From positions 1 to 39,196 of the forward strand of contig JAKMCX010000180.1 in assembly GCA_022428285.1 (NCBI GenBank): DNA of 39,196 bases, read 5' to 3'. Positions 1,613-34,580 of this stretch are shown in pieces. The stretch is from Flavobacteriales bacterium (GTDB lineage: Bacteria > Bacteroidota > Bacteroidia > Flavobacteriales_D > Sanyastnellaceae). The translations under genes were made by a program, and so were the position numbers. The stretch's first letter is position 1, and each line of letters starts with the position of its first letter. The notes below the pieces were generated by a model. The model worked only from the letters and a program-made list of their open reading frames with translations. It made no database searches and was not told the origin of the DNA.

Positions 1613-3031
1613 TTAGCGGGCAAGTTTGACCCTGCCGGCGCCGGCTTTGTCGGCGATGCTCAAGACGTGAATGCCTCTGGCGGCGAAGGGTACGGTCCCG
1701 TCTGAACTGTATCCGGAGGAGACCCACCTTCCACTGAGGTCGAAGATGGTCCATTCAAATCCCGCCCGGTGCAACACGCGCCAACCTTCTGGAAGAACAG
1801 CAATCTCGAGGGGCTCAGCTTCTGCATGAGAAGGCAGATTCATCCCTGTGGATATGGTGCCTTTTCGGTAGTGGACGGTTCCCTCAGATGGGCGTTGGTA
1901 GACGAGGTGAACGGTGTTTTCATGGATCCGCACAACAGGGCGGCGGCTGTGTCCAGAGAGGTCTTCGGTCACCTCAATAGCAGCAGAAACCCATTCGTTG
2001 GGCGCTGAAGTTGCATTGCTCCCTACAGCCACGACGATGCCATAACCTCCGAGGTTTCTCTCCCAAGCGGCAACACTGTATTGCCCGTCGGCATCTACAG
2101 AAGGATTGTTTTCGAGGTGGGTGGTTCCGGGCTGTATCCGGTCTGACCCCATCAGGGACCATTCCTCTAAATCAACGGTTGACCAATAGACCCTGCTGCC
2201 TCCTTCGCCGGCAGACATGAACACCACCATGAGCGTGCCATCTGCCAAAATGCAGGTCTCCGCTTCAGATGCAGGGCAAGCGTTGATGTTCCAATCTGTG
2301 GGGTCGATGTCCAGGGCTTCGGTCCAGTTTCCAAGCCCATCGGTTCTGACCATCCAGAAATCGCGGATGTTGTCATTGTTGTTGCGCACGATATCGTAGT
2401 TCCGGCCGCCGTGACTGAAAGGCATGGACGCGCAGCACTCGCAGACCGCTTCACCCTCCATGGCTTGCCCCGCATCCACAGGTGCAGAGAAGGTCCCACT
2501 CGCTGCTTCCCAAAAGAGGGCCCCTTCCAATACAGGAGCAGGCCCCCATTTCACGGTGACCCAAGGCTGCTGGTCGCCATCAAATGCGGGAACAGGCATG
2601 AAATGGTCCACCGTGGCTTCGGGTGCTACAGGAATTGGACTGTCCCATGAAGTGCCGCCGTCTTCGGAGAGCACCAGCCTGCCGCCATTGGCCCATTGTC
2701 CTGACAATTGATACGACACGGCGATGCGGTCACCCGAAACCGCCATTCGCGGTCCTTCGGCGTCATTGATGAACAGTCCTGCCTCGCTGGTGACGGCCAC
2801 GGGTCCATCAAATCCAGAACCATTCCATCGGGTGCAATAAAGGCCGCCATTGGCTCCGCTCTTTCCATGGAGGATCACGGGCGCCCCGCCGTTGTCAAGC
2901 ACCATGCGGAGGTTGGTATAGCCGAAATCTGAAGGGGCAATCGCTACTGGATCTTCCCAACTGATGGAGGTTTGAGACAAGAGCGGACTGGACAAGAAAA
3001 GGGCCAAAGCAACCAGAATAGCATTGCGCAT
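1613..3031 (-). CDS. Secreted sialidase/beta-propeller-like protein with T9SS-like C-terminal sorting domain
   Basis: Signal peptide MRNAILVALALFLSSPLLSQ; repeated propeller-like SEDGGTSWDSPI (Asp-box-like) segment; C-terminus EWTIFDLSGRWVSSGYSSDGTVPFAARGIHVLSI..GRVKLAR resembles T9SS type A domains. Confidence 0.7.
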   Translation of the reverse strand: MRNAILVALALFLSSPLLSQTSISWEDPVAIAPSDFGYTNLRMVLDNGGAPVILHGKSGANGGLYCTRWNGSGFDGPVAVTSEAGLFINDAEGPRMAVSGDRIAVSYQLSGQWANGGRLVLSEDGGTSWDSPIPVAPEATVDHFMPVPAFDGDQQPWVTVKWGPAPVLEGALFWEAASGTFSAPVDAGQAMEGEAVCECCASMPFSHGGRNYDIVRNNNDNIRDFWMVRTDGLGNWTEALDIDPTDWNINACPASEAETCILADGTLMVVFMSAGEGGSRVYWSTVDLEEWSLMGSDRIQPGTTHLENNPSVDADGQYSVAAWERNLGGYGIVVAVGSNATSAPNEWVSAAIEVTEDLSGHSRRPVVRIHENTVHLVYQRPSEGTVHYRKGTISTGMNLPSHAEAEPLEIAVLPEGWRVLHRAGFEWTIFDLSGRWVSSGYSSDGTVPFAARGIHVLSIADKAGAGRVKLAR

Positions 3032-3084
3032 GAGGGGAAGTTAATGCGGCATTCCATTTTCTGGCTTTCGCTAAATTCACTCCC

Positions 3085-4017
3085 ATGAAAGATTTACATC
3101 TCCTTCGTCAGGTCGCATATGCCGCCACATTTTTGATGTTGTGCGGAGCTGCGCAAGCTCAGGTTTTGACCTGTGCAGAAATCCAGGGTGGGTCGGACGT
3201 GAGTCCCTACGAAGGACAGGAGGTGACTGTCACAGGGAAGGTGACGGTCTTTTTCGGTGACATCTGGTACTTACAAGATGACTACGGCCCCTGGAATGGC
3301 CTCATGTGTGTCGGCCCCGATGTGTTGATCGACGCCAACCCACCTTGGTGGAATGCGCCCCGTCAGCCGGAGGTAGGGGATGTGCTGCAGTTGACAGGCA
3401 CCATTTATGAAACAGATGGCAACACTCAGATGATGGACATCACCGAGTTTGTGTTCAATGACTTTTGGAATGCCACCGCTGCGGGAGTGGGGGTGACTGT
3501 TGCTGAGATGATGGACGAAAGTTTAGAAGGGACCCGCGCCAGGTTGGATCCTGTGACCGTGATGACCGCTCCGGAAGATGGCGTGTGGACGGTGTCTGAT
3601 GCTACCGGAACCTTGAAGGTCTATGGTGTCGATACCGACGATCCAGGCCTCAATGAGGATGCTGATGGCCCAACCCCTGGCGATGTCTACCGCATTTACG
3701 GTGCTGTGCGCCAAATTGGAGAGGAGTACGTCTTGGACCTGAGCGACATCGACACGTTGTCTCTCGCCGTGGGGGTTGGCGAAAGAAAAGGGCTGGAAGT
3801 GCTGCTGATGCCCAATCCTGCGCGCGATGCAGTGCGCATTTCAGGACTGGATCAGCCTGGGGTGTGGGATGTTTATGATGCCATGGGCCGAACAGTGCGC
3901 ACAGGCCAGACTTCAGGTGCTTTTACGCTGTCCTTGGAAGGCCTGTTGCCAGGCAGGTACACCGTACAACTCAGTGTTGACGGCGAATCCATTCGCAAGC
4001 CGCTGGTGGTGCACTGA
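3085..4017 (+). CDS. Secreted OB-fold-like protein with T9SS type A sorting domain
   Basis: Signal peptide; YEGQEVTVTGKVTVFFGDIWYLQDDYGPWNGLMC resembles OB-fold domains of secreted bacterial proteins; C-terminal LMPNPARDAVRISGL...YDAMGRTVRTGQTSG...LLPGRYTVQLSVDGESIRKPLVVH is a typical T9SS sorting domain. Confidence 0.72.
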   Translation: MKDLHLLRQVAYAATFLMLCGAAQAQVLTCAEIQGGSDVSPYEGQEVTVTGKVTVFFGDIWYLQDDYGPWNGLMCVGPDVLIDANPPWWNAPRQPEVGDVLQLTGTIYETDGNTQMMDITEFVFNDFWNATAAGVGVTVAEMMDESLEGTRARLDPVTVMTAPEDGVWTVSDATGTLKVYGVDTDDPGLNEDADGPTPGDVYRIYGAVRQIGEEYVLDLSDIDTLSLAVGVGERKGLEVLLMPNPARDAVRISGLDQPGVWDVYDAMGRTVRTGQTSGAFTLSLEGLLPGRYTVQLSVDGESIRKPLVVH

Positions 4018-4040
4018 TACAGCAGCCCTGCTGACCCCAT

Positions 4041-4062
4041 ATAGAGGGAGTCAGTCCTCTAT
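4041..4062. terminator. Candidate bidirectional hairpin between convergent genes
   Basis: ATAGAGG (4041-4047) pairs with CCTCTAT (4056-4062) between and slightly into the ends of the convergent CDSs; no strong U-tract. Confidence 0.35.
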
Positions 4063-6414
4063 GGATTCGATGTAATCCTGGTTTTCCCGAACGCGCTGCA
4101 TGGGGTTGGCAGCATCGCGGCCATAACTCCGGGTAGCGTCATTGTAGAGGTCGATGCGCTGCGGACGCACATTGCGCGGCCAGGCATTGTTGGACAAGTC
4201 CGTGTCGGCGGTTTCCAAGTAGGGGTCGAGGGTGATGGACACCGCCTCTTGCGGGGTCACAAACACCTTGGTGACTTCCTTGCTGCCTTTGCGCCAAATC
4301 TCCACGGGAACGCGGCGAACATCGGTGGTTCCATCTTCATAGGTGAATCCCACAATAACCGGCATCACGAGCCCTCCGAGGTTTTCGAAGGTCAATTGGT
4401 AAAAGTGCTTCCCTGAAGACAGCATTTTGAGTTCTTCCTCATCCAATTGGGCCACATAGTCCTTGTATTCCTCGCGCTCAATTTCCATCACAGCATAAGG
4501 ATCTACGGTGGTGTAGTGGTCGTTGAGTTCGGGGCGCGCCTCAAGCCTGCTCTCCGCGATGTAAGTCTCATCCCGCGTCAAAGAGATGTCCTCGGGTTGG
4601 GCGTCTTGTTCGGCCTTGGCGAGTGCTTTTTCTACGTCGGGGTCTCCTGAAGAGATCTGATACCACTGGATGTCTTTGAGTGAAAGGTCCACATGGTCGT
4701 TGGTGTAGAACCATCCGCGCCAGAACCAATCCAAGTCTACGCTGGAGGCATCTTCCATCGTACGGAAAAGGTCGGCAGGTGTGGGGCGCTTGAAAGCCCA
4801 TCGGCGTCCATACTCTTTGAAGGCGTAATCGAACAGTTCGCGGCCCATGACGGTTTCGCGCAGAATGTTGAGGGCCGTGGCGGGCTTCCCGTAGGCATTG
4901 GGGCCAAACTGGAAGATGCTTTCAGAGTTGGTCATGATGGGAGAAATCCGCTTGGGATCACCCCCCATGTAATTGGTGATTTTTCGCGCTGGACCGCGGC
5001 GGGTAGGGTAGTTCCGGTCGAATTCCTTTTCCGCGAGGTATTGCACAAAGGTGTTCAGGCCCTCGTCCATCCATGTCCATTGGCGCTCATCCGAATTGAT
5101 GATCATGGGGTAGAAGTTGTGTCCCACCTCGTGTATGATGACAGAGACCATGCCGTGCTTGGTTCGGGCACTGTATGTGCCGTCGGGTTCGGGCCGACCA
5201 CCATTGAAGCAGATCATCGGATACTCCATGCCGATCCACTTGGTGTGGACGCTGATGGCCACCGGGTACGGGTACTCACAAGCGAATTCAGAATAGGTGA
5301 GGAGGGTCTGGGCTACGGCCTCAGTGCTGTATTGCTCCCACAATGGGTTGCCCTCTTTGGGGTAGTAGCTCATGGCGAGCGGGGTGCTGTTCTCCAGAGG
5401 GACGGCCATGGCATCCCAAATGAACTTTCGGCTAGAAGCAAAGGCGAAGTCACGCACATTATCGGCCTTGTAGCGCCATGTCTTGAGGCCCTTTTCCTTG
5501 GTCTTCTCGTTTTCTCGTGCCTCGTCCTCCGTGACAATCAAAACAGGACGGTCTGATGTTTTGGCCTCGTCGAAACGCGCACGTTGTGTGGCCGTCAATA
5601 CTTCCTTGGGGTTTTGAAGCACACCCGTTGATCCCACAATGTGATCGCTGGGTACCGTGATGCTCACGTCGTAATCTCCAAACTCAAGGGTAAACTCTCC
5701 ACCTCCCAAGAACTGCTTGTTTTGCCATCCCATCCGGTCATAGTAGGCGCAAAGCCTTGGAAAGAACTGTGCGATGGTGTAGAGGTAGTTGTCTTCTTCT
5801 TCGAAGTATTCGTAGCCGCTGCGGCCTCCAATGGCAAGGCGGTCATTGATGTTGTACCACCAGTCCACTTGAAAGGTGAACTTCCCACCGGGTGCCAATG
5901 GCTTCGGCAGGTCCACGCGCATCATGGTTTGGTTGATGGTGTGGGCGAGTTCTCGTCCTGATCCATCCTTCACGGCTTCGATTTTGAAGCCTCCGTCAAA
6001 GTCGGGCTCGAGACCCGACACCCGATCAAAGGTCATGCGGTCTTCCATAAAGCCCTCCTTGATCATGTGGCTGTCGCTGTCCAGGTCGCGCATGTTCTGG
6101 TCCAATTGAAGCCAGAGGTAACGCAGCTCATCCGGTGAGTTGTTGATGTAGGTGATGGTCTCTTTTCCATCGATGCGTTGCGTGGCATCGTCAAGGCGGA
6201 TGTCCATCACATAGTCCACTTGTTGCTGCCAATAGGCATGACCAGGAGCTCCGCTCGCCGTTCTCACCGTGTTGGGCGTAGGCAAAACGTCGTAAAGCTG
6301 ACGGAATGGATTGTCGTTCGTGTTGCCCTCCAATTGAGCCTGGCTCTGCAATGCACAAAGGAGCATCAGAGACAGTGCAGCAGCGAATCGGAAGCAGGAC
6401 TGAAGTGTGGTCAT
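4051..6414 (-). CDS. M1 family (gluzincin) metallopeptidase, secreted
   Basis: HEVGHNFYPMIINSDERQWTWMDEGLNTFVQY matches HExxH-(18)-E; GMEYPMICFNGG exopeptidase-like motif; signal peptide MTTLQSCFRFAAALSLMLLCALQSQAQ gives a start at 6414 rather than 6582. Confidence 0.92.
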   Translation of the reverse strand: MTTLQSCFRFAAALSLMLLCALQSQAQLEGNTNDNPFRQLYDVLPTPNTVRTASGAPGHAYWQQQVDYVMDIRLDDATQRIDGKETITYINNSPDELRYLWLQLDQNMRDLDSDSHMIKEGFMEDRMTFDRVSGLEPDFDGGFKIEAVKDGSGRELAHTINQTMMRVDLPKPLAPGGKFTFQVDWWYNINDRLAIGGRSGYEYFEEEDNYLYTIAQFFPRLCAYYDRMGWQNKQFLGGGEFTLEFGDYDVSITVPSDHIVGSTGVLQNPKEVLTATQRARFDEAKTSDRPVLIVTEDEARENEKTKEKGLKTWRYKADNVRDFAFASSRKFIWDAMAVPLENSTPLAMSYYPKEGNPLWEQYSTEAVAQTLLTYSEFACEYPYPVAISVHTKWIGMEYPMICFNGGRPEPDGTYSARTKHGMVSVIIHEVGHNFYPMIINSDERQWTWMDEGLNTFVQYLAEKEFDRNYPTRRGPARKITNYMGGDPKRISPIMTNSESIFQFGPNAYGKPATALNILRETVMGRELFDYAFKEYGRRWAFKRPTPADLFRTMEDASSVDLDWFWRGWFYTNDHVDLSLKDIQWYQISSGDPDVEKALAKAEQDAQPEDISLTRDETYIAESRLEARPELNDHYTTVDPYAVMEIEREEYKDYVAQLDEEELKMLSSGKHFYQLTFENLGGLVMPVIVGFTYEDGTTDVRRVPVEIWRKGSKEVTKVFVTPQEAVSITLDPYLETADTDLSNNAWPRNVRPQRIDLYNDATRSYGRDAANPMQRVRENQDYIESIED

Positions 6415-6491
6415 CGGTTCGTCTCGGTTGGGGCAAAACATGCCTTGGGAACTGCCCAATTTACGAATGGACGCTGATGTAATTTGCCACC

Positions 6492-7022
6492 ATGATTGGA
6501 TGCAGTTTGAATGCCGTTTGGATGCCACTTTTTTTCTGGCTGAATGGCGCGGTTTCAGGACCTGAAATGGGGAGTGCTTCATGTGAACACCCTGACCACG
6601 GAGCGCCTTTTGTTGAGCAGTTGTCCGGGCAATGGGTCATCTCCTCCAAAAAAGGCGAGGAGCGGCGATTGCGGATGTATGAGGATGGCCGATTCGCATT
6701 TAAATCTGATGCTGAATGGACGGCGGGGAGTTATGTCATTCTCCGTTCAGATGAGCGGCAAAAAGGGGTTTTGCGTATGGAGTATTACCTCGATGGAAAC
6801 CTGCATCTGCAAGAAGTGAGGTGCGAAATCTACTTTGCAGAGCATGCGCGCGACAGCGATGGAGATGCAGAGCACAACCACAGCCATTCAGAGGAACACG
6901 GCGGTGGGCATGAAACGGCAGAGGCAGAAGAGGGGCACCACCACGAATACCTGCGGGTAGAAGTGTTGCCCGCTGCAGAGCAACGGCTCAACATGGCTGG
7001 GGACTACCTCCACCAGCATTAA
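6492..7022 (+). CDS. Small secreted protein with His-rich loop (hypothetical)
   Basis: ORF with N-terminal hydrophobic segment and EHNHSHSEEHGGGHETAEAEEGHHHEY His/acid-rich stretch. Confidence 0.65.
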   Translation: MIGCSLNAVWMPLFFWLNGAVSGPEMGSASCEHPDHGAPFVEQLSGQWVISSKKGEERRLRMYEDGRFAFKSDAEWTAGSYVILRSDERQKGVLRMEYYLDGNLHLQEVRCEIYFAEHARDSDGDAEHNHSHSEEHGGGHETAEAEEGHHHEYLRVEVLPAAEQRLNMAGDYLHQH

Positions 7023-25479: not shown

Positions 25480-27927
25480 ATGTATGTGGATGTCATCCTC
25501 CCGTTGGCCCTTCCCGGGCTTTTGACCTATGAGGTTCCCTCTGGCGACGAAAGTGCTGTGCAGGAAGGGTGTCGGATCATCGTTCCGTTGAGGGGTAAAC
25601 GGCTTCACACTGCCGTGGTCCGGCGGATTCACAACAACAAGCCCGACCATGCTACTGAGCCTTATCTCTCGGTTTTGGACACCCAACCCCTTCTTTCTCC
25701 TGCGACGCTCAAATTCTGGGATTGGATTGCGTCACATTACTGCTGCGGACCGGGAGAAGTGGCCCTCGCGGCATTGCCATCTGGCATGAGGCTCGCCAGT
25801 GAGACCAAGCTGGAATTGTCTCCCGATGCCGAAGAACGCGATGAAGAAGAGCTCGGTGACAAGGAGTTTCAAGTGGTCGAAGCACTCCGCTTGAGGGGCG
25901 GATTGTCATTCAAGGAGGTCGGGTCTTTGCTGGGGGTGGTCAATCCCGCTCCACTGCTCCACCGGCTTGTAGAGGCAGGGTGGGTGCTCTCCATGGAGGA
26001 GCTCAAGGCGAGCCCGCGCCGAAAATTGGTCTCTATGGTGAGGTTGTCGGAGCAAGCATGCGCCGATGAGCGCTGGCTCAACGAAGCTTTGGATGCGCTG
26101 GATTCTCGCGCGCCCTCCCAATCCCGCGCCATGATGACCCTTCTCGCAGAGGACGCAGCGCCGGTGGGGGTGCCCTTGGAGAGCCTCACCAAAATGGAAG
26201 GGGTGACCTCTACTTTGTTCAAGAGGCTGATGGAAAAGGGCCTTGTCTTCCAATTCAAGCAAGACCCCTGGCAATTGCAGTCTTCTCAGGAGGTGGAGCC
26301 GCTGGCGACATTGAGTGAAGCACAGCAGAAGGCGGTCGGTTCCATGCGCGAAGCCTTTGAAGCCACCCCTCTTGTGTTGTTGGAAGGCGTGACGGGCTCA
26401 GGAAAGACAGAGGTGTACACCCACTTGATCCACGATGTGCTGGAGTCGGGAAGGGATGCGCTGTTTTTGGTTCCTGAAATCGCCCTTACAACACAGTTGA
26501 TCGTGCGGTTGCGCCGCTTTTTTGGTGACCGGTTGGAAGTCTATCACAGCCGATTTAGCCCCAGGGAGCGCACGGCAACATACCGCCGCGTATCGTCCAA
26601 GGAGTCCAGAGGACGTCTGATGGTAGGTGCACGCAGCGCCATTTTCTTGCCCTTCTCAAACCTGGGTTTGATCGTCGTAGACGAAGAACACGACGCCAGC
26701 TACAAACAACAAGATCCAGCACCGCGGTATCAGGCGCGGGATGCAGCAGCGATGCTGGGCCGCATGCACAGTGCTGCGGTGGTTTTGGGTTCTGCTACAC
26801 CATCGTTGGAGGCGCGATTCGCCGTGCAGTCAGGCCGAGCGGCACACATTGAATTGGCTGAACGGTTTGGGGGGACCTCTTTGCCGGAGGTGGGGCTGGT
26901 TGACCTGCGGAAGGCGCACAAACAGCGCGCCATGGAAGGCCATTTTAGCCGGACGTTGCTCGATGCGCTCAAGTCTACGCTAGAGGCAGGCAAACAAGCG
27001 ATATTGTTTCAGAACAGGCGCGGATTCGCCCCCGTGTATCAATGCCGAACATGCGGTTGGGTTCCGGACTGCGAGCGCTGCGATGTCAGTTTGACCTATC
27101 ACAAGTACCTCAAAGACCTTCACTGTCACTATTGCGGCTACCGGCAGGGCGAGCCCAGTACTTGTCCCCGCTGCGGAAGCGAGGAGGTGGAGGCCAAAGG
27201 CTTGGGAACGGAGCGCATCGAGGAAGAGGTGGTCCAGCTTCTGCCAGGGGTGACGGTGCAACGCATGGACCTGGATACCACCCGCAGTCGGACGGGGCAC
27301 GAACGCATCATCCGAGCATTTGAGCAGGGTGAAATTCAAGTTCTGGTGGGCACACAAATGGTCACGAAGGGATTGGATTTTGAAAGGGTGGGGCTGGTTG
27401 GGATTTTACAGGCTGACCACATGCTGCACTTTCCCGACTTCAGGGCATTGGAGCGGACTTTTCAATTGTTGACCCAAGTGGCAGGAAGGGCGGGGAGAAG
27501 AGGGGAGCGTGGTCAGGTGCTGATTCAGACTTTCGATCCTGAGCATTGGGTATTCCAGCATGTGGTGACCCACGACGCCCAAGCCATGGCGGAAGCGGAA
27601 TTAAAAGAGCGCGCGTCATTTGGCTATCCTCCCATTGTGCGGCTGGTGCGGTTGATCATGCGACACCGCGATCCTCATTTAACCCGGGAAGCTGCGTCGG
27701 CATTGGCAGGCCGTTTGCGCAGCAGGTTCGGCGGTCGGGTCATTGGTCCAGAAGAACCGGGCATTGCCCGGGTCAATGATCTGTATCAGCGGCACATCTT
27801 GCTCAAGGTGGAGCGCACGGTGGATACGGTAAAGTTCAAAGAGGCCATGATGGAAGACATTGGAACGTTGCGGCAGGTTCCCCGCTTCAAGCCGGTCCGG
27901 GTCATAGTCGACATAGACCCGTATTGA
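25480..27927 (+). CDS. priA: Primosomal protein N' (PriA helicase)
   Basis: YVDVILPLALPGLLTYEVP; VLLEGVTGSGKTEVYTHLI; VDEEHDASYKQQDPAPRYQARDAAAMLG; zinc-binding CRTCGWVPDCERCDVSLTYHKYLKDLHCHYCGYRQGEPSTCPRCGSE. Confidence 0.98.
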   Translation: MYVDVILPLALPGLLTYEVPSGDESAVQEGCRIIVPLRGKRLHTAVVRRIHNNKPDHATEPYLSVLDTQPLLSPATLKFWDWIASHYCCGPGEVALAALPSGMRLASETKLELSPDAEERDEEELGDKEFQVVEALRLRGGLSFKEVGSLLGVVNPAPLLHRLVEAGWVLSMEELKASPRRKLVSMVRLSEQACADERWLNEALDALDSRAPSQSRAMMTLLAEDAAPVGVPLESLTKMEGVTSTLFKRLMEKGLVFQFKQDPWQLQSSQEVEPLATLSEAQQKAVGSMREAFEATPLVLLEGVTGSGKTEVYTHLIHDVLESGRDALFLVPEIALTTQLIVRLRRFFGDRLEVYHSRFSPRERTATYRRVSSKESRGRLMVGARSAIFLPFSNLGLIVVDEEHDASYKQQDPAPRYQARDAAAMLGRMHSAAVVLGSATPSLEARFAVQSGRAAHIELAERFGGTSLPEVGLVDLRKAHKQRAMEGHFSRTLLDALKSTLEAGKQAILFQNRRGFAPVYQCRTCGWVPDCERCDVSLTYHKYLKDLHCHYCGYRQGEPSTCPRCGSEEVEAKGLGTERIEEEVVQLLPGVTVQRMDLDTTRSRTGHERIIRAFEQGEIQVLVGTQMVTKGLDFERVGLVGILQADHMLHFPDFRALERTFQLLTQVAGRAGRRGERGQVLIQTFDPEHWVFQHVVTHDAQAMAEAELKERASFGYPPIVRLVRLIMRHRDPHLTREAASALAGRLRSRFGGRVIGPEEPGIARVNDLYQRHILLKVERTVDTVKFKEAMMEDIGTLRQVPRFKPVRVIVDIDPY

Positions 27928-27937
27928 TGTGACTAAT

Positions 27938-27969
27938 TTTGTATAATAGATTATACTAGGCTATATTTG
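27938..27969 (+). promoter_or_regulatory. Bacteroidota-type promoter (-33 TTTG / -7 TAnnTTTG)
   Basis: TTTG at 27938-27941 and TATATTTG at 27962-27969, 20-nt spacer; predicted TSS lies only a few nt upstream of, or at, the leader ATG (27977). Confidence 0.7.
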
Positions 27970-27976
27970 TCACATC

Positions 27977-28057
27977 ATGAACGTTAATCTCAGCATTTGT
28001 TGTTGTTGTTGTCCGGCCCCTCCGGGCAGGTTACCGTCATGCAAGAGAATGAGCTGA
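27977..28057 (+). CDS. Cysteine-rich attenuator leader peptide MNVNLSICCCCCPAPPGRLPSCKRMS
   Basis: ATG AAC GTT AAT CTC AGC ATT TGT TGT TGT TGT TGT CCG GCC CCT CCG GGC AGG TTA CCG TCA TGC AAG AGA ATG AGC TGA. Five tandem UGU codons directly abut a set of alternative RNA pairings. Absent from the ORF track because of its length. Confidence 0.85.
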   Translation: MNVNLSICCCCCPAPPGRLPSCKRMS

Positions 28058-28113
28058 ACAGCCATTGTCCTTTATCCCTTGACCAACCTGCCCGGCCTTC
28101 GCCGGGCTTTTTT
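28009..28113 (+). promoter_or_regulatory. Candidate cysteine-responsive transcription attenuator (protector, antiterminator, terminator)
   Basis: Protector: 28009-28016 with 28022-28029 (UUGUCCGG/CCGGGCAG, GU pairs included). Antiterminator: CCGGGCAGGTT 28022-28032 with AACCTGCCCGG 28085-28095, perfect 11 bp. Terminator: 28090-28096 with 28101-28107 plus T6. Confidence 0.85.
28090..28113 (+). terminator. Intrinsic terminator of the attenuator
   Basis: GCCCGGC (28090-28096) CTTC GCCGGGC (28101-28107) TTTTTT (28108-28113), located just before the ATG at 28122. Confidence 0.9.
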
Positions 28114-28121
28114 ATGCGCCT

Positions 28122-29120
28122 ATGTTTTCTCCTTTACAATTCCAATTTGGAACCGATTCTGCTCCTGTCATTCACATCATCCATGAGAACGATACATGGT
28201 TGGAGCCCTTGCGCCTTGAACTGGCTGAGCGCGCCTTGCCTTATGCCGAGTGGTTTATAGACGACCTCGTTCTGGACCTCACCACTGCGCCGCCTGAGGG
28301 GGTGTTTTACAACCGGATGAGCGCGAGCTCCCACACCAGGGACCACCGCTATGCATGGGAGGCCACGCGTGGATTGATGGGCTGGCTCGAAGCGCACGGC
28401 AGAAGGGTTGTGAACAACAGACGCGCGACTGAGCTGGAGGTGAGTAAAGTAGAGCAGGCCATAGCCTTGCAGGCCAGCGGATTGATGACGCCGAAGACGG
28501 TGGCGGTTACCGGGCCCCAAGCATTGCGAAGTGCAGCAGCCGATTGGTCCGACCCTTTCATCCTCAAGCCCAATCGAGGAGGAAAAGGGACGGGAGTAGA
28601 GCTCGTCCGGAATCAAGCGCAGTTGGACCGAATTGTCGAAGGTTTTGAAGACTACACCTTGGACGGTACTGTGGTCCTTCAATCCTATATACAACCTGCA
28701 GATGGACGGGTTTGGCGACTCGAATTCGTGGGTGGGAATCACCTGTACACGGTGAGCATTGACGCTGGGGGCGGCTTCGAGCTTTGCCCTTCGGATGCTT
28801 GTCAAGTGGGCAACGCCTATTGTCCCGCTGACGGCAGGGCCAAGTTTGAAATCTTGGATGGACACCATCCCCAAGAGTTGGAGCGTTGCTTGTCCTTTTT
28901 GCGCGGCGCGGGGATGGAGGTGGCGGCCATGGAGGCCGCTCCCGATGCCCAAGGCAGGTTGCGGTTTTACGATGTCAACATCAATACCAATTACAATGCT
29001 GATGCGGAGCGTCGACAGGGTGTGGAACGGACGGGAATGGGAGAAATCGCTGCGTTTTTAGGACGAGAACTCGAGGTGGTTCGTGCAGAGGCCAAGCGAC
29101 AAAAACAGCATGCGTCATGA
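28122..29120 (+). CDS. ATP-grasp ligase (RimK/glutathione-synthetase-like fold), substrate unknown
   Basis: SKVEQAIALQASGLMTPKTVAVTGP...WSDPFILKPNRGGKGTGVELV...TVVLQSYIQPADGRVWRLEFVGG...YDVNINTNYNADAE: ATP-grasp Lys/Gly-rich loop and metal-binding D.N.N.N motif. Confidence 0.85.
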   Translation: MFSPLQFQFGTDSAPVIHIIHENDTWLEPLRLELAERALPYAEWFIDDLVLDLTTAPPEGVFYNRMSASSHTRDHRYAWEATRGLMGWLEAHGRRVVNNRRATELEVSKVEQAIALQASGLMTPKTVAVTGPQALRSAAADWSDPFILKPNRGGKGTGVELVRNQAQLDRIVEGFEDYTLDGTVVLQSYIQPADGRVWRLEFVGGNHLYTVSIDAGGGFELCPSDACQVGNAYCPADGRAKFEILDGHHPQELERCLSFLRGAGMEVAAMEAAPDAQGRLRFYDVNINTNYNADAERRQGVERTGMGEIAAFLGRELEVVRAEAKRQKQHAS

Positions 29121-30265
29121 CCAGAATGGCACCAAAAAGGGAGGGGCTGAAAGCCTCCCAGACCGCCAAACAGGTCGCCGTCGTTGGGGGTGGCATTATG
29201 GGGGCGATGACTGCAGCGCACCTCGTCGATCAAGGGGCAAAAGTCACCTTGTACGACCCGAATCTCATGGGGACCGGGCCCGGCGCTTCTGTCGATACCG
29301 GCCGGAGCTTTAGGGTCCATTATGGTGAGGACAAGGGCTTGATCAAGATGGCGGTCCGGAGCCGCGTTCTTTGGGGAAACTGGGAGCGAGAACTGGGACG
29401 GCCTTTGCTGCATACCACAGGGAAGCTGCTGATTGAGGAGCCCGGAGACCGACATGCCCGCGACAGTTGGAGGGCCATGCGCTCACTTGGGCTGCGGGCC
29501 GACCGCATGTCCAAGGGTGCCGTCTCTGAGGAGTGGCCTGGTCTCCATACAGGGGCCGCCACCGTGGACCGCATGGGAGGGGTGCTTGACCCCATGGTCA
29601 TCCTCCAAGGGTTGCTCGTGTGGTTGGCCTCCAGAGGGGTGGATTTCAAAGGCGAAGCATTCGACGTGACGACCACCGCTGTAGAATGCGCCAAAGGCCG
29701 TGCAGAGTTCGACTCCGTCGTGTTGACGGCTGGAGCGTGGACGCGCCGTTGGACCGAGGTTTCTATGGAAGTCACGCGTCAAGAACTCGTGTATTTTGAT
29801 GCTTCAGCTTTGGGGGGCCGGTTGCAAAACCTGCCAGTATTCAGCCACATGGAAAGCGGATTTTATGCCATTCCGACGGTCAAGGATGGACGGATCAAGG
29901 TGGCCAACCACCACCCCGGGGTCCAAGGCCATCCCGACGGAGATGCGCGTCAGGTTTCCGCGGCTTTTGAGCAGGAAGCACGAAAGTTCTTGGGCCGTTA
30001 CATTCCGGAGTTGGCCGAAGCCGACGTGGCCAGGCGGTACGTCTGTTTCTACAGTGGCACAGCAGACCGAGATTTCATTTTGGATCGAACGTCAGAAGGG
30101 CTGGTGATCGGAGCGGGTTTTAGTGGCCACGGATTCAAATTTGCCCCATTGATTGGGCGCCTTCTGGCACAACTCGCATTGGGGTTAGAGCCGGAAGTGA
30201 ACCTCGACCGTTTTTCTATGAAGCGTCCAGCACTGCGGGGTGCGCGAACAAAGATTGCCGTCTAA
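29117..30265 (+). CDS. FAD-dependent amine oxidase, monomeric sarcosine oxidase / N-methyltryptophan oxidase-like
   Basis: VAVVGGGIMGAMTAAHLVDQGAKVTLYD dinucleotide fold; GRSFRVHYGEDKGLIKMAVRSRVLW; YVCFYSGTADRDFILDR...GLVIGAGFSGHGFKFAPLIGRLLAQLAL matches the MSOX covalent-flavin Cys and C-terminal GFSGHGFKF motifs. ATGA overlap with the ATP-grasp gene. Confidence 0.88.
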   Translation: MTRMAPKREGLKASQTAKQVAVVGGGIMGAMTAAHLVDQGAKVTLYDPNLMGTGPGASVDTGRSFRVHYGEDKGLIKMAVRSRVLWGNWERELGRPLLHTTGKLLIEEPGDRHARDSWRAMRSLGLRADRMSKGAVSEEWPGLHTGAATVDRMGGVLDPMVILQGLLVWLASRGVDFKGEAFDVTTTAVECAKGRAEFDSVVLTAGAWTRRWTEVSMEVTRQELVYFDASALGGRLQNLPVFSHMESGFYAIPTVKDGRIKVANHHPGVQGHPDGDARQVSAAFEQEARKFLGRYIPELAEADVARRYVCFYSGTADRDFILDRTSEGLVIGAGFSGHGFKFAPLIGRLLAQLALGLEPEVNLDRFSMKRPALRGARTKIAV

Positions 30266-32495: not shown

Positions 32496-33461
32496 TTAAC
32501 GCAATTCAAGAATGCGTTCAACGAGTTCGTCGCCAATCCGATCTTGGGCTTCGAGGGTTGCCGCGCCGATGTGGGGGGTGAGGGCCAAACCGGCGACGCT
32601 CAGCAGTGAAGCATCGGGCTTGGGCTCTCCCACAAAGACATCGAGGGCTGCGCCGCGAAGGTGTCCATTTTCCACTGCAGAGCGGACTGCGCTTTCATCC
32701 ACGGTGCCGCCTCTGGCGGTGTTGACCAACATGGCACCCGGTTTCATGGAAGCGATGCCAGCAGCATCCAGCACGGGTGAGCCGTCCGATTGCGCAGGAA
32801 CGTGGAAGGTGATGGCGTCTGCTTTGGCCAGCATGTCCTCCAGGGGAACCAAAGGGATTTCTACTTCGATGTCTTGAATTTTGGCGCCGCCAAGGGGCAC
32901 TTCGACATGGACAGTGCGGGAAGTGCCTTCGCGGTCTACGCCGATGACGTGCATGCCACAACCAAGCGCGTATTGGGCCACAGCCGTTCCAATGCGGCCA
33001 AATCCTACAATACCGAGGGTCTTTCCTCGAAGTTCAATGCCCTTGGCGTAGGCCTTCTTGAGCACTTTGAACTCCTCTGCACCCTGTTCCGGCATGGCGC
33101 GATAGCTGTGTTGCAGAGAACGCGCCATGGCAAACAAGTGGGCCATCACCAGTTCAGCCACGCTTTGGGAGCTGGCCGCGGGCGTGTTGAACACGACCCG
33201 TCCTTGCTCTCGGGCGTAAGCCACATCGATGTTGTCCATTCCGACGCCACCCCGCCCGATAAACCGCAGGTTGGGGCAGGCGTCGATGAGGTCTTGGCGG
33301 ACCTTGGTTGCACTGCGCACGAGGATGCCATCGTAGCCTTCTGAATTGAGGGTGTCGATCAGGTTGGCTTGATCCACATGGTCAGTGGAGACATGGACGC
33401 CAGCGGCTTCGAGCTGGGCTTGGGCCTTGGCAGAAATGCCGTCGTTTGCAAGGACTTTCAT
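32496..33461 (-). CDS. serA: D-3-phosphoglycerate dehydrogenase (D-2-hydroxyacid dehydrogenase family)
   Basis: LRFIGRGGVGMDNIDVAYAREQGRVVFNTPAASSQSVAELVMAH...GKTLGIVGFGRIGTAVAQYALG...MLVNTARGGTVDESAV; adjacent to serC. Confidence 0.88.
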   Translation of the reverse strand: MKVLANDGISAKAQAQLEAAGVHVSTDHVDQANLIDTLNSEGYDGILVRSATKVRQDLIDACPNLRFIGRGGVGMDNIDVAYAREQGRVVFNTPAASSQSVAELVMAHLFAMARSLQHSYRAMPEQGAEEFKVLKKAYAKGIELRGKTLGIVGFGRIGTAVAQYALGCGMHVIGVDREGTSRTVHVEVPLGGAKIQDIEVEIPLVPLEDMLAKADAITFHVPAQSDGSPVLDAAGIASMKPGAMLVNTARGGTVDESAVRSAVENGHLRGAALDVFVGEPKPDASLLSVAGLALTPHIGAATLEAQDRIGDELVERILELR

Positions 33462-33497
33462 GGCAGGATGGTCGGTGTTTCTTTTGGATAAAGGGGG

Positions 33498-34580
33498 TCA
33501 GCCGTGGGTGCGCTCGAATTCTTTCATGACGTCGGTGAGCACTTCGACGCTGGAGAGGGGCAACGCATTGTACATGGAGGCGCGGAAGCCGCCAATGGAC
33601 CGGTGCCCCTTGATTCCATTGATGCCCGCTGCATTGCAAGCGTCCAAGAACAGAGGGGTGTGGGTCTCATTCGCTGCGGTGAACGTGGCGTTCATGACGC
33701 TGCGCGACCCAAGGGCTGCATACCCATTGAACAGCGGATTGCGGTCTATTTCACCGTAGATGCAGGCGGCTTTGGCTGCATTGCGCTGTTGCATTTCGCG
33801 CACACCGCCTTCGCCTTTGAGCCAGCGCAAAGTCAGCATGCTCGTATAGATGGCAAAGACGGGGGGCGTGTTGAACATGCTGTCTTTGTCGGCGTGAACC
33901 GCCAAATCAAGATAGCTGGGCAAATCGCGTCCTGTTTGGCCCACTTGCCGCTTGTCATAGATGTAGAGGACGGTCCCTGCAGGGCCCATGTTCTTTTGGG
34001 CGCCGGCGTAGATGCAAGCGTACCGCTCGATGTCGATGGGACGCGAAAAAATGTCCGAGGACATGTCCGCAACCATGGGCTTGTTTACCGAGGGGTCACC
34101 GGCATATTGTGTGCCGTAAATGGTGTTGTTCGTCGTGATGTGGACAGCGCTGGCAGAGGATGCCGCCGGCAATTCAGGAATGTGGTTAAACCCACTGTCT
34201 TCGCTGGATGTGATGGCCTGCGCTGTGCCCATCTTGCGCGCTTCCTTCAAGGCCTTCTTTGCCCATGTTCCGGTGACAGCGTAGTCCATGCTGCCATTTG
34301 ACGGGGTGAAATTCATGGCCGTTGTGAGAAAGCCCAAGCTGGCGCCGCCTTGGAGAAACAAGACTTCGTAATGGTCGGGGAGGCTCAATTCGGAACGGAC
34401 CAAATCCCGGGCTTCTTCCATCACGGCCACAAAGGGCTTGCTGCGGTGGGAAATTTCAATCAAGCTGAGTCCGCCACCATCGAGGTCGCGAACCGCATCG
34501 GAGGCCTGCTGAAGCACGGAAGGTGGCAGAATACAAGGGCCTGCAGAAAAATTATGGATGGTATGGGTGGTGGTCGACAT
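33498..34580 (-). CDS. serC: Phosphoserine aminotransferase
   Basis: IHNFSAGPCILPPSVLQQASDAV...GLSLIEISHRSKPFVAVMEEARDLVRSELSLPDHYEVLFLQGGASLGF...YACIYAGAQKNMGPAGTVLYIYDKR. Confidence 0.96.
   Translation of the reverse strand: MSTTTHTIHNFSAGPCILPPSVLQQASDAVRDLDGGGLSLIEISHRSKPFVAVMEEARDLVRSELSLPDHYEVLFLQGGASLGFLTTAMNFTPSNGSMDYAVTGTWAKKALKEARKMGTAQAITSSEDSGFNHIPELPAASSASAVHITTNNTIYGTQYAGDPSVNKPMVADMSSDIFSRPIDIERYACIYAGAQKNMGPAGTVLYIYDKRQVGQTGRDLPSYLDLAVHADKDSMFNTPPVFAIYTSMLTLRWLKGEGGVREMQQRNAAKAACIYGEIDRNPLFNGYAALGSRSVMNATFTAANETHTPLFLDACNAAGINGIKGHRSIGGFRASMYNALPLSSVEVLTDVMKEFERTHG

Follow-up and report, generated by a model that had tools for sequence, protein, structure and literature searches.

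A candidate cysteine-responsive leader-peptide attenuator with a predicted leaderless start upstream of an orphan ATP-grasp ligase gene in Bacteroidota

Transcription attenuators of the trp/his type combine a leader peptide carrying regulatory codons, a 1:2 protector hairpin and a 2:3 antiterminator that shares a strand with a 3:4 intrinsic terminator, and the same layout is seen ahead of an ATP-grasp ligase gene in the window studied here (the whole stretch of 39,196 nucleotides that was analysed; it belongs to contig 42 of a genome that is 90% complete and has uncultured Flavobacteriales MAGs as its close relatives). The locus has a codon run for one amino acid, an intrinsic terminator before the first gene and a covarying antiterminator, together with a 1:2 protector that is clear in the window's clade; agreement between the amino acid sensed and the metabolism of the controlled gene is found for a sister leader on a cysM-JAMM-ThiS gene set. 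It departs from the trp/his type in its amino acid (cysteine), in having an ATP-grasp ligase as first gene, in its predicted leaderless or nearly leaderless ORF and in its phylum, Bacteroidota.

Cysteine leaders have been proposed in two other groups. In Rhodobacterales, uORFC-8-2 precedes cysS and contains two tandem Cys codons, mainly UGC, for which attenuation by uncharged tRNA-Cys was proposed (PMC8632094). Like the window, it places the tandem Cys codons of a short ORF within the first of two stems and has an intrinsic terminator/U run behind them; however, it has two Cys codons and occurs only before cysS in Alphaproteobacteria, whereas the type described here has four to seven, mostly UGU, before the ligase or cysM, and the gene downstream in the window is an ATP-grasp ligase rather than cysS. 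Mycobacterial leaderless poly-Cys short ORFs attenuate downstream translation, according to the passage of PMC9031893 that describes Canestrari et al. (2020), and mycobacterial Cys leaders without obvious terminators had been predicted in PMC1262725. These share with the window a contiguous Cys run and a position before cysteine-related genes, and a leaderless or nearly leaderless ORF is predicted for the window as well, but they lack obvious terminators and are described as acting on translation, whereas the window type has a strong conserved terminator and an antiterminator. Within the window's own phylum and class, Flavobacterium psychrophilum has predicted attenuators of the leader-peptide kind ahead of operons for amino-acid biosynthesis, with no cysteine leader or ATP-grasp target in the parts of that source dealing with them (PMC9723704). 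The original prediction for this locus knew of no description of the arrangement for the operon, and likewise neither a Bacteroidota Cys leader nor one ahead of this ATP-grasp family turned up in the open-access literature searched. No Rfam family scored above threshold in the window or in 15 related loci, and the sub-threshold matches look like chance. The mechanism is classical and cysteine versions of it are already known; what is unusual is the predicted leaderless start, the occurrence of tandem units and the orphan target.

The features of the locus are as follows.

27938 to 27969, + strand: Bacteroidota-type promoter boxes (-33 box TTTG at 27938-27941, 20 nt spacer, -7 box TATATTTG at 27962-27969)
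27977 to 28057, + strand: leader peptide ORF of 26 codons, ATG at 27977 and TGA at 28055-28057, translation MNVNLSICCCCCPAPPGRLPSCKRMS then stop
27998 to 28012, + strand: five regulatory UGU (Cys) codons, read from the sequence
28009 to 28029, + strand: 1:2 protector hairpin, 28009-28016 paired with 28022-28029 (8 bp, two of them G-U; -10.8 kcal/mol alone)
28022 to 28032, + strand: segment 2, the antiterminator 5' arm (CCGGGCAGGTT), with covariation
28036 to 28083, + strand: inner antiterminator helix formed by GTCA (28036-28039) and TGAC (28080-28083), around a hairpin that spans the leader stop codon
28085 to 28095, + strand: segment 3, the antiterminator 3' arm (AACCTGCCCGG), overlapping the terminator 5' arm
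28090 to 28113, + strand: intrinsic terminator, GCCCGGC (28090-28096), CTTC, GCCGGGC (28101-28107) and T6 (28108-28113)
28122 to 29120, + strand: RimK/LysX-type ATP-grasp ligase, 332 aa, orphan (TIGR00768 below cut-off)
29117 to 30265, + strand: FAD-dependent amine oxidase, sarcosine/N-methyltryptophan oxidase type (Pfam DAO 3.5e-48; PDB sarcosine oxidase 1e-34)

The 26-codon ORF with its five UGU codons, the 1:2 pairing, the perfect 11-bp antiterminator and the terminator with its T6 tract, with segment 3 common to the last two, had all been proposed in the original prediction, and each lies where it was placed there. Our analysis adds the Bacteroidota-type promoter boxes and the GTCA/TGAC inner helix, which is conserved and covaries (97.9% of alignment cells paired, with G-C/G-U/A-U variation); the stop-codon hairpin is visible by eye in most relatives. 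A terminator scan returned two overlapping sites against 0.1 in shuffled sequence, and folding of 28009-28113 gave z = -5.5 relative to dinucleotide shuffles (z = -3.2 for the whole region). Without a ribosome the two states are in near balance, with -10.8 and -24.5 kcal/mol for 1:2 plus 3:4 and -33.3 kcal/mol for 2:3.

Between the TATATTTG box and the leader ATG lie 7 nt, and in 15/15 aligned relatives a TAnnTT box is found 6 or 9 nt 5' of the start codon. Since the boxes stop so close to the ATG, the leader ORF should begin at or almost at the RNA 5' end, and it is probably leaderless or nearly so under the TAnnTTTG/TTTG consensus quoted for Bacteroidota promoters (PMC7366714). Leaderless mRNAs are a minority in the class, with a figure of 5.5% for F. 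psychrophilum in the relevant passage of PMC9723704. An inverted repeat (TGATGTGAC..GTCACATCA, 27925-27976) lies on both sides of the promoter and GTATAAT..ATTATAC lies between its boxes, GTATAAT being kept in nine relatives; an operator or an alternative -10 are possible readings of these elements.

Across the window's own genome, the distinct runs of at least four Cys codons (57 overlapping pattern matches) include one, the ORF at 27977, that combines a short ORF, a promoter-like box and a convincing terminator; one other short Cys-run ORF has a weak hairpin-T4 match and no promoter-like box. Raw TGYx4 and TGYx5 pattern searches were discarded as a means of finding leaders, as their matches were mostly coding or antisense repeats without a leader. 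Poly-proline stalling (APPG) was also set aside, being present in some leaders only and not conserved.

We consider it very probable that the region is a ribosome-mediated transcription attenuator that senses cysteine supply via ribosome speed. The switch point was located by modelling a ribosome whose leading edge reaches 12 nt past the A-site codon. With this ribosome on the Cys codons of the window the terminator probability was 0.0 (0.3 at one of them), and from the next codon onward it was 1.0. In the model, then, a halted ribosome on the Cys codons frees the antiterminator, and the terminator wins one codon further on. Sequence and computation establish the ORF, the Cys run, the alternative helices, their covariation and conservation, and the switch point; where transcription starts, that the leader is translated, that ribosomes stall on it and that readthrough changes with cysteine are what we infer, as follows. 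The RNA would begin at the leader ATG or just ahead of it, and translation by a ribosome would set in at once. When charged tRNA-Cys is scarce, the ribosome would halt on the UGU run and cover segment 1, leaving segment 2 free to pair with segment 3, together with the GTCA/TGAC helix; no terminator would then form and polymerase would read into the ligase and oxidase genes. With ample Cys-tRNA, the ribosome would pass and either cover segment 2 or let 1:2 form after leaving; the 3:4 terminator would fold and transcription would end at about 28108-28113.

The same behaviour was examined in 45 leaders with a co-transcriptional version of the model, in which the RNA is cut just after the terminator 5' arm. 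This arm was paired upstream with a value of 0.72 when the ribosome stood on the last Cys codon. Shuffled linkers (a shuffle that keeps dinucleotides only) lowered the value to 0.48, and moving the ribosome to the stop codon lowered it to 0.26 (Wilcoxon 3e-13 and 9e-12, p-values that are optimistic as the leaders are related); the effect also holds across unrelated leader sequences. In the AT-rich Saprospiraceae leaders the equilibrium terminator probability does not separate Cys from stop positions, whereas the co-transcriptional version does, and since many of these leaders always favour the terminator at equilibrium the switch there must be kinetic. Two Rhodothermia-like leaders gave no pairing switch by this modelling and a third has an eroded run, CRCRC.

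Orthologues of the ATP-grasp gene are present in 14/17 other genomes of the genus and in one genome of a sister genus (taxonomy of the relatives, mostly MAGs, as given in the sequence records); the three genomes of the genus without a match are 67-78% complete. All 15 assessable genomes (at least 300 nt upstream of the ATP-grasp gene; 14 of the genus, the window included, and one of the sister genus) have a 23-26-codon Cys-run ORF, then a terminator, then the same ATP-grasp gene. The run itself varies (CCCCC, CPCCCC, CCCCCC, CCIICCCC, CCCLCC, CCSCC, CCCTCC, CTCCCL, CTCCCC), and across nine close leaders there are 108 synonymous and 398 non-synonymous pairwise codon differences, the cysteines being kept while the remaining peptide drifts. 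Mostly amino-acid-changing differences outside the Cys run are what would be expected if only the codons and the RNA matter. The UGU:UGC ratio is 70:19 in the clade's leaders compared with 21:34 in the genes of the window (Fisher p = 1e-6), a bias that may be partly due to pairing constraints.

The antiterminator covaries, and neither a shifted nor a shuffled pairing reaches the observed values. Alignment A4 has 90% of the antiterminator cells paired, versus 22-48% after sliding by 1-3 columns, and includes 11 double-changed cells versus 4.1 +- 1.5 in shuffles (0/500), with examples such as AGGTT/AACCT, CGGTA/TATTG, CACA/TGTG and GGGTG/CACCC. Segment 2 binds its own segment 3 at -12.8 kcal/mol, compared with -10.4 +- 0.65 for swapped partners (p = 0.0003). 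RNAalifold on A4 independently recovered 1:2 (its innermost pair changing from G-C to A-U), the GTCA/TGAC inner helix and the terminator, whose stem all aligned relatives keep. The original prediction had named in advance, as evidence against a cysteine-responsive attenuator, homologous operons without a Cys run or without arms that covary; instead, the Cys run is conserved and the antiterminator covaries, and the same design recurs in unrelated sequences before the ATP-grasp gene and in an independent leader on cysteine-synthesis genes.

The ATP-grasp alignment was scanned against one genome per species, giving 80 loci. Besides the close relatives, 27 of these carry an upstream Cys-run ORF, with up to seven Cys; they comprise Saprospiraceae and relatives, other Bacteroidota, one Candidatus Kapaibacterium and one further bacterium. 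In nearly all 27 a terminator follows whose sequence is quite different (AGAGCCTTCTC.., AGCCTTTCC..), and segment 2 is altered to match. Two complete Cys-leader-terminator units stand in tandem in a Candidatus Kapaibacterium MAG (L107, about 140-420 nt 5' of the ATP-grasp gene) and in a bacterium MAG (L125). The ATP-grasp gene is rare across the phylum (3/298 sampled genomes, the window's own excluded), and in this phylum sample another Bacteroidota genus (L184-L186) accounts for three loci, two with a short CCCC leader and one with its run eroded to CRCRC. In total, about 29 further genomes from Bacteroidota and Kapaibacteria-type lineages have the leader arrangement before the ATP-grasp gene. 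No Cys leader was found upstream of 32 homologues in other bacteria, mostly Proteobacteria by their record titles, or at five loci labelled Bacteroidota (L100, L101, L108, L114, L129). The proposed protector, which includes the last Cys codons, is clear in the window's clade; in the Saprospiraceae, the leader stop codon adjoins segment 2 and the leader seems to work mainly via a ribosome at the stop codon covering segment 2.

A search ahead of cysteine genes showed that four genomes of the genus (L206-L209) have a second, different Cys-run leader with a terminator (MMRFNCCCCCCTLLGALGFRRGRRC and variants), about 200-340 nt 5' of the cysM match. The three that were checked downstream have a CysM-like cysteine synthase, then a JAMM-type reading frame, then a ThiS-family carrier, a set that is, by predicted gene content, a CysO-type cysteine-synthesis operon. 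A genome of the sister genus (L205) has a similar leader followed by a cysteine-synthase-like gene, a Prok-JAB protein and a small ThiS-like ORF. Family calls for these loci were made with TIGR01138/TIGR01136 (below cut-off), PF02597 and PF14464, and the JAMM fragment of L207 had no Pfam match. The four genus cysM leaders were modelled by the pairing of the terminator 5' arm, the measure used for them. With the ribosome at any of the Cys codons this pairing is 0.9, and it is no more than 0.5 at the next codon; each of the four has a TAnnTT box exactly 6 nt 5' of the ATG. A leader of this cysM type was not found in the window's own assembly, nor did 25 cysS loci of the clade and of related genomes, or most of the clade's cysK copies, have a Cys leader. 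In the window, serA-like and serC genes lie near the operon (32496-34580, - strand), possibly by coincidence; O-phosphoserine, the product of SerC, is the substrate of CysO-dependent CysM in mycobacteria.

That the clade's Cys-run leaders precede real cysteine metabolism speaks for sensing of cysteine and against an arrest peptide that binds metal. The same RNA switch could in principle be driven by the nascent CCCCC peptide, sensing copper, zinc, oxidants or an antibiotic in the exit tunnel and arresting the ribosome, an idea that draws on the cysteine-rich leader peptide and on the Cys-containing metal-responsive leader peptides known elsewhere. It is very improbable, as such an arrest would be expected after the Cys residues enter the tunnel, yet the terminator wins one codon past the run; moreover, the non-Cys residues are unconserved, the Cys pattern varies freely (CCCCC, CPCCCC, CCCLCC, CTCCCC) and the sister leader precedes a cysteine-synthesis operon. 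We regard as marginally less probable still a translational attenuation, in which the hairpins would determine whether ribosomes reach the start of the ligase gene, a mode put forward for the mycobacterial leaderless poly-Cys ORFs in the passage of PMC9031893 describing them. Nearly every homologue with a leader has a strong GC stem directly followed by T5-T9, which is the mark of intrinsic termination. Ribosome binding in Bacteroidota does not depend on a Shine-Dalgarno sequence of the kind that a hairpin could hide. Lastly, the stem-loop might be no more than the terminator of priA, whose end lies 50 nt 5' of the window's leader, and the Cys ORF might have arisen by chance. This view is barely credible and is already contradicted by the comparative data: in genomes with other upstream genes (G019/L014, Saprospiraceae, Kapaibacterium) the leader is still found with the ligase, priA and the leader are separated by a promoter-like box, and the terminator and segment 2 change together.

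Under the favoured cysteine-responsive attenuation, the genes controlled would be the ligase and the oxidase, whose start overlaps the ligase stop (ATGA). The oxidase adjoins the ligase gene in the Flavobacteriales group only; elsewhere the ligase gene is mostly alone, and gene neighbours in distant genomes have no obvious common theme. Pfam, NCBIfam, PDB sequence and fold searches place the ligase in the RimK/LysX/Ddl class only, with a sub-cutoff TIGR00768 match in 52/52 ATP-grasp homologues scanned and, for its AlphaFold model (pLDDT 85), best PDB matches to ArgX, LysX, RimK, DcsG and Ddl. The model has a low-confidence loop (residues 221-238) whose cysteines, in the motif LCPxDxC..CP, are invariant; these could bind a metal or cluster or sit at the active site. 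A homologue on a Pediococcus acidilactici plasmid (L281) lies in a cluster (2827-6930) that also encodes a thioredoxin-fold protein and a GltP-like symporter, the latter interrupted by IS30; a T-box upstream of it, at 2542-2770 of the same locus (below gathering score), was rejected as a Cys sensor, its specifier reading UUA or AUU, not Cys. The leader is the sole tie between the ligase and cysteine. As attenuation switches genes on when the amino acid is short, a role of the ligase in cysteine supply or salvage would be more likely than one in its consumption.

A further phylum thus gains poly-Cys leaders, and as far as the open literature searched shows, no earlier Bacteroidota example comes with the full anatomy of antiterminator and terminator together with covariation. 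Predicted leaderless attenuators without Shine-Dalgarno initiation also bear on early ribosome-polymerase coupling. Cysteine-tRNA charging is attached as a probable signal to a widespread orphan ligase family, and with a physiological signal attached the function of the ligase becomes testable. We would give an even chance to the broader proposal that members of this ATP-grasp family (HENxxW, NRMSAS, LCPxDxC...CP) are enzymes that serve cysteine supply or cysteine-thiol homeostasis, a role so far unrecognised. On this view Bacteroidota and relatives keep the family under a leaderless poly-Cys attenuator of its own, doubled in places and joined in one clade by CysO-type synthesis, which would amount to an undescribed leader-peptide cysteine regulon in the phylum.
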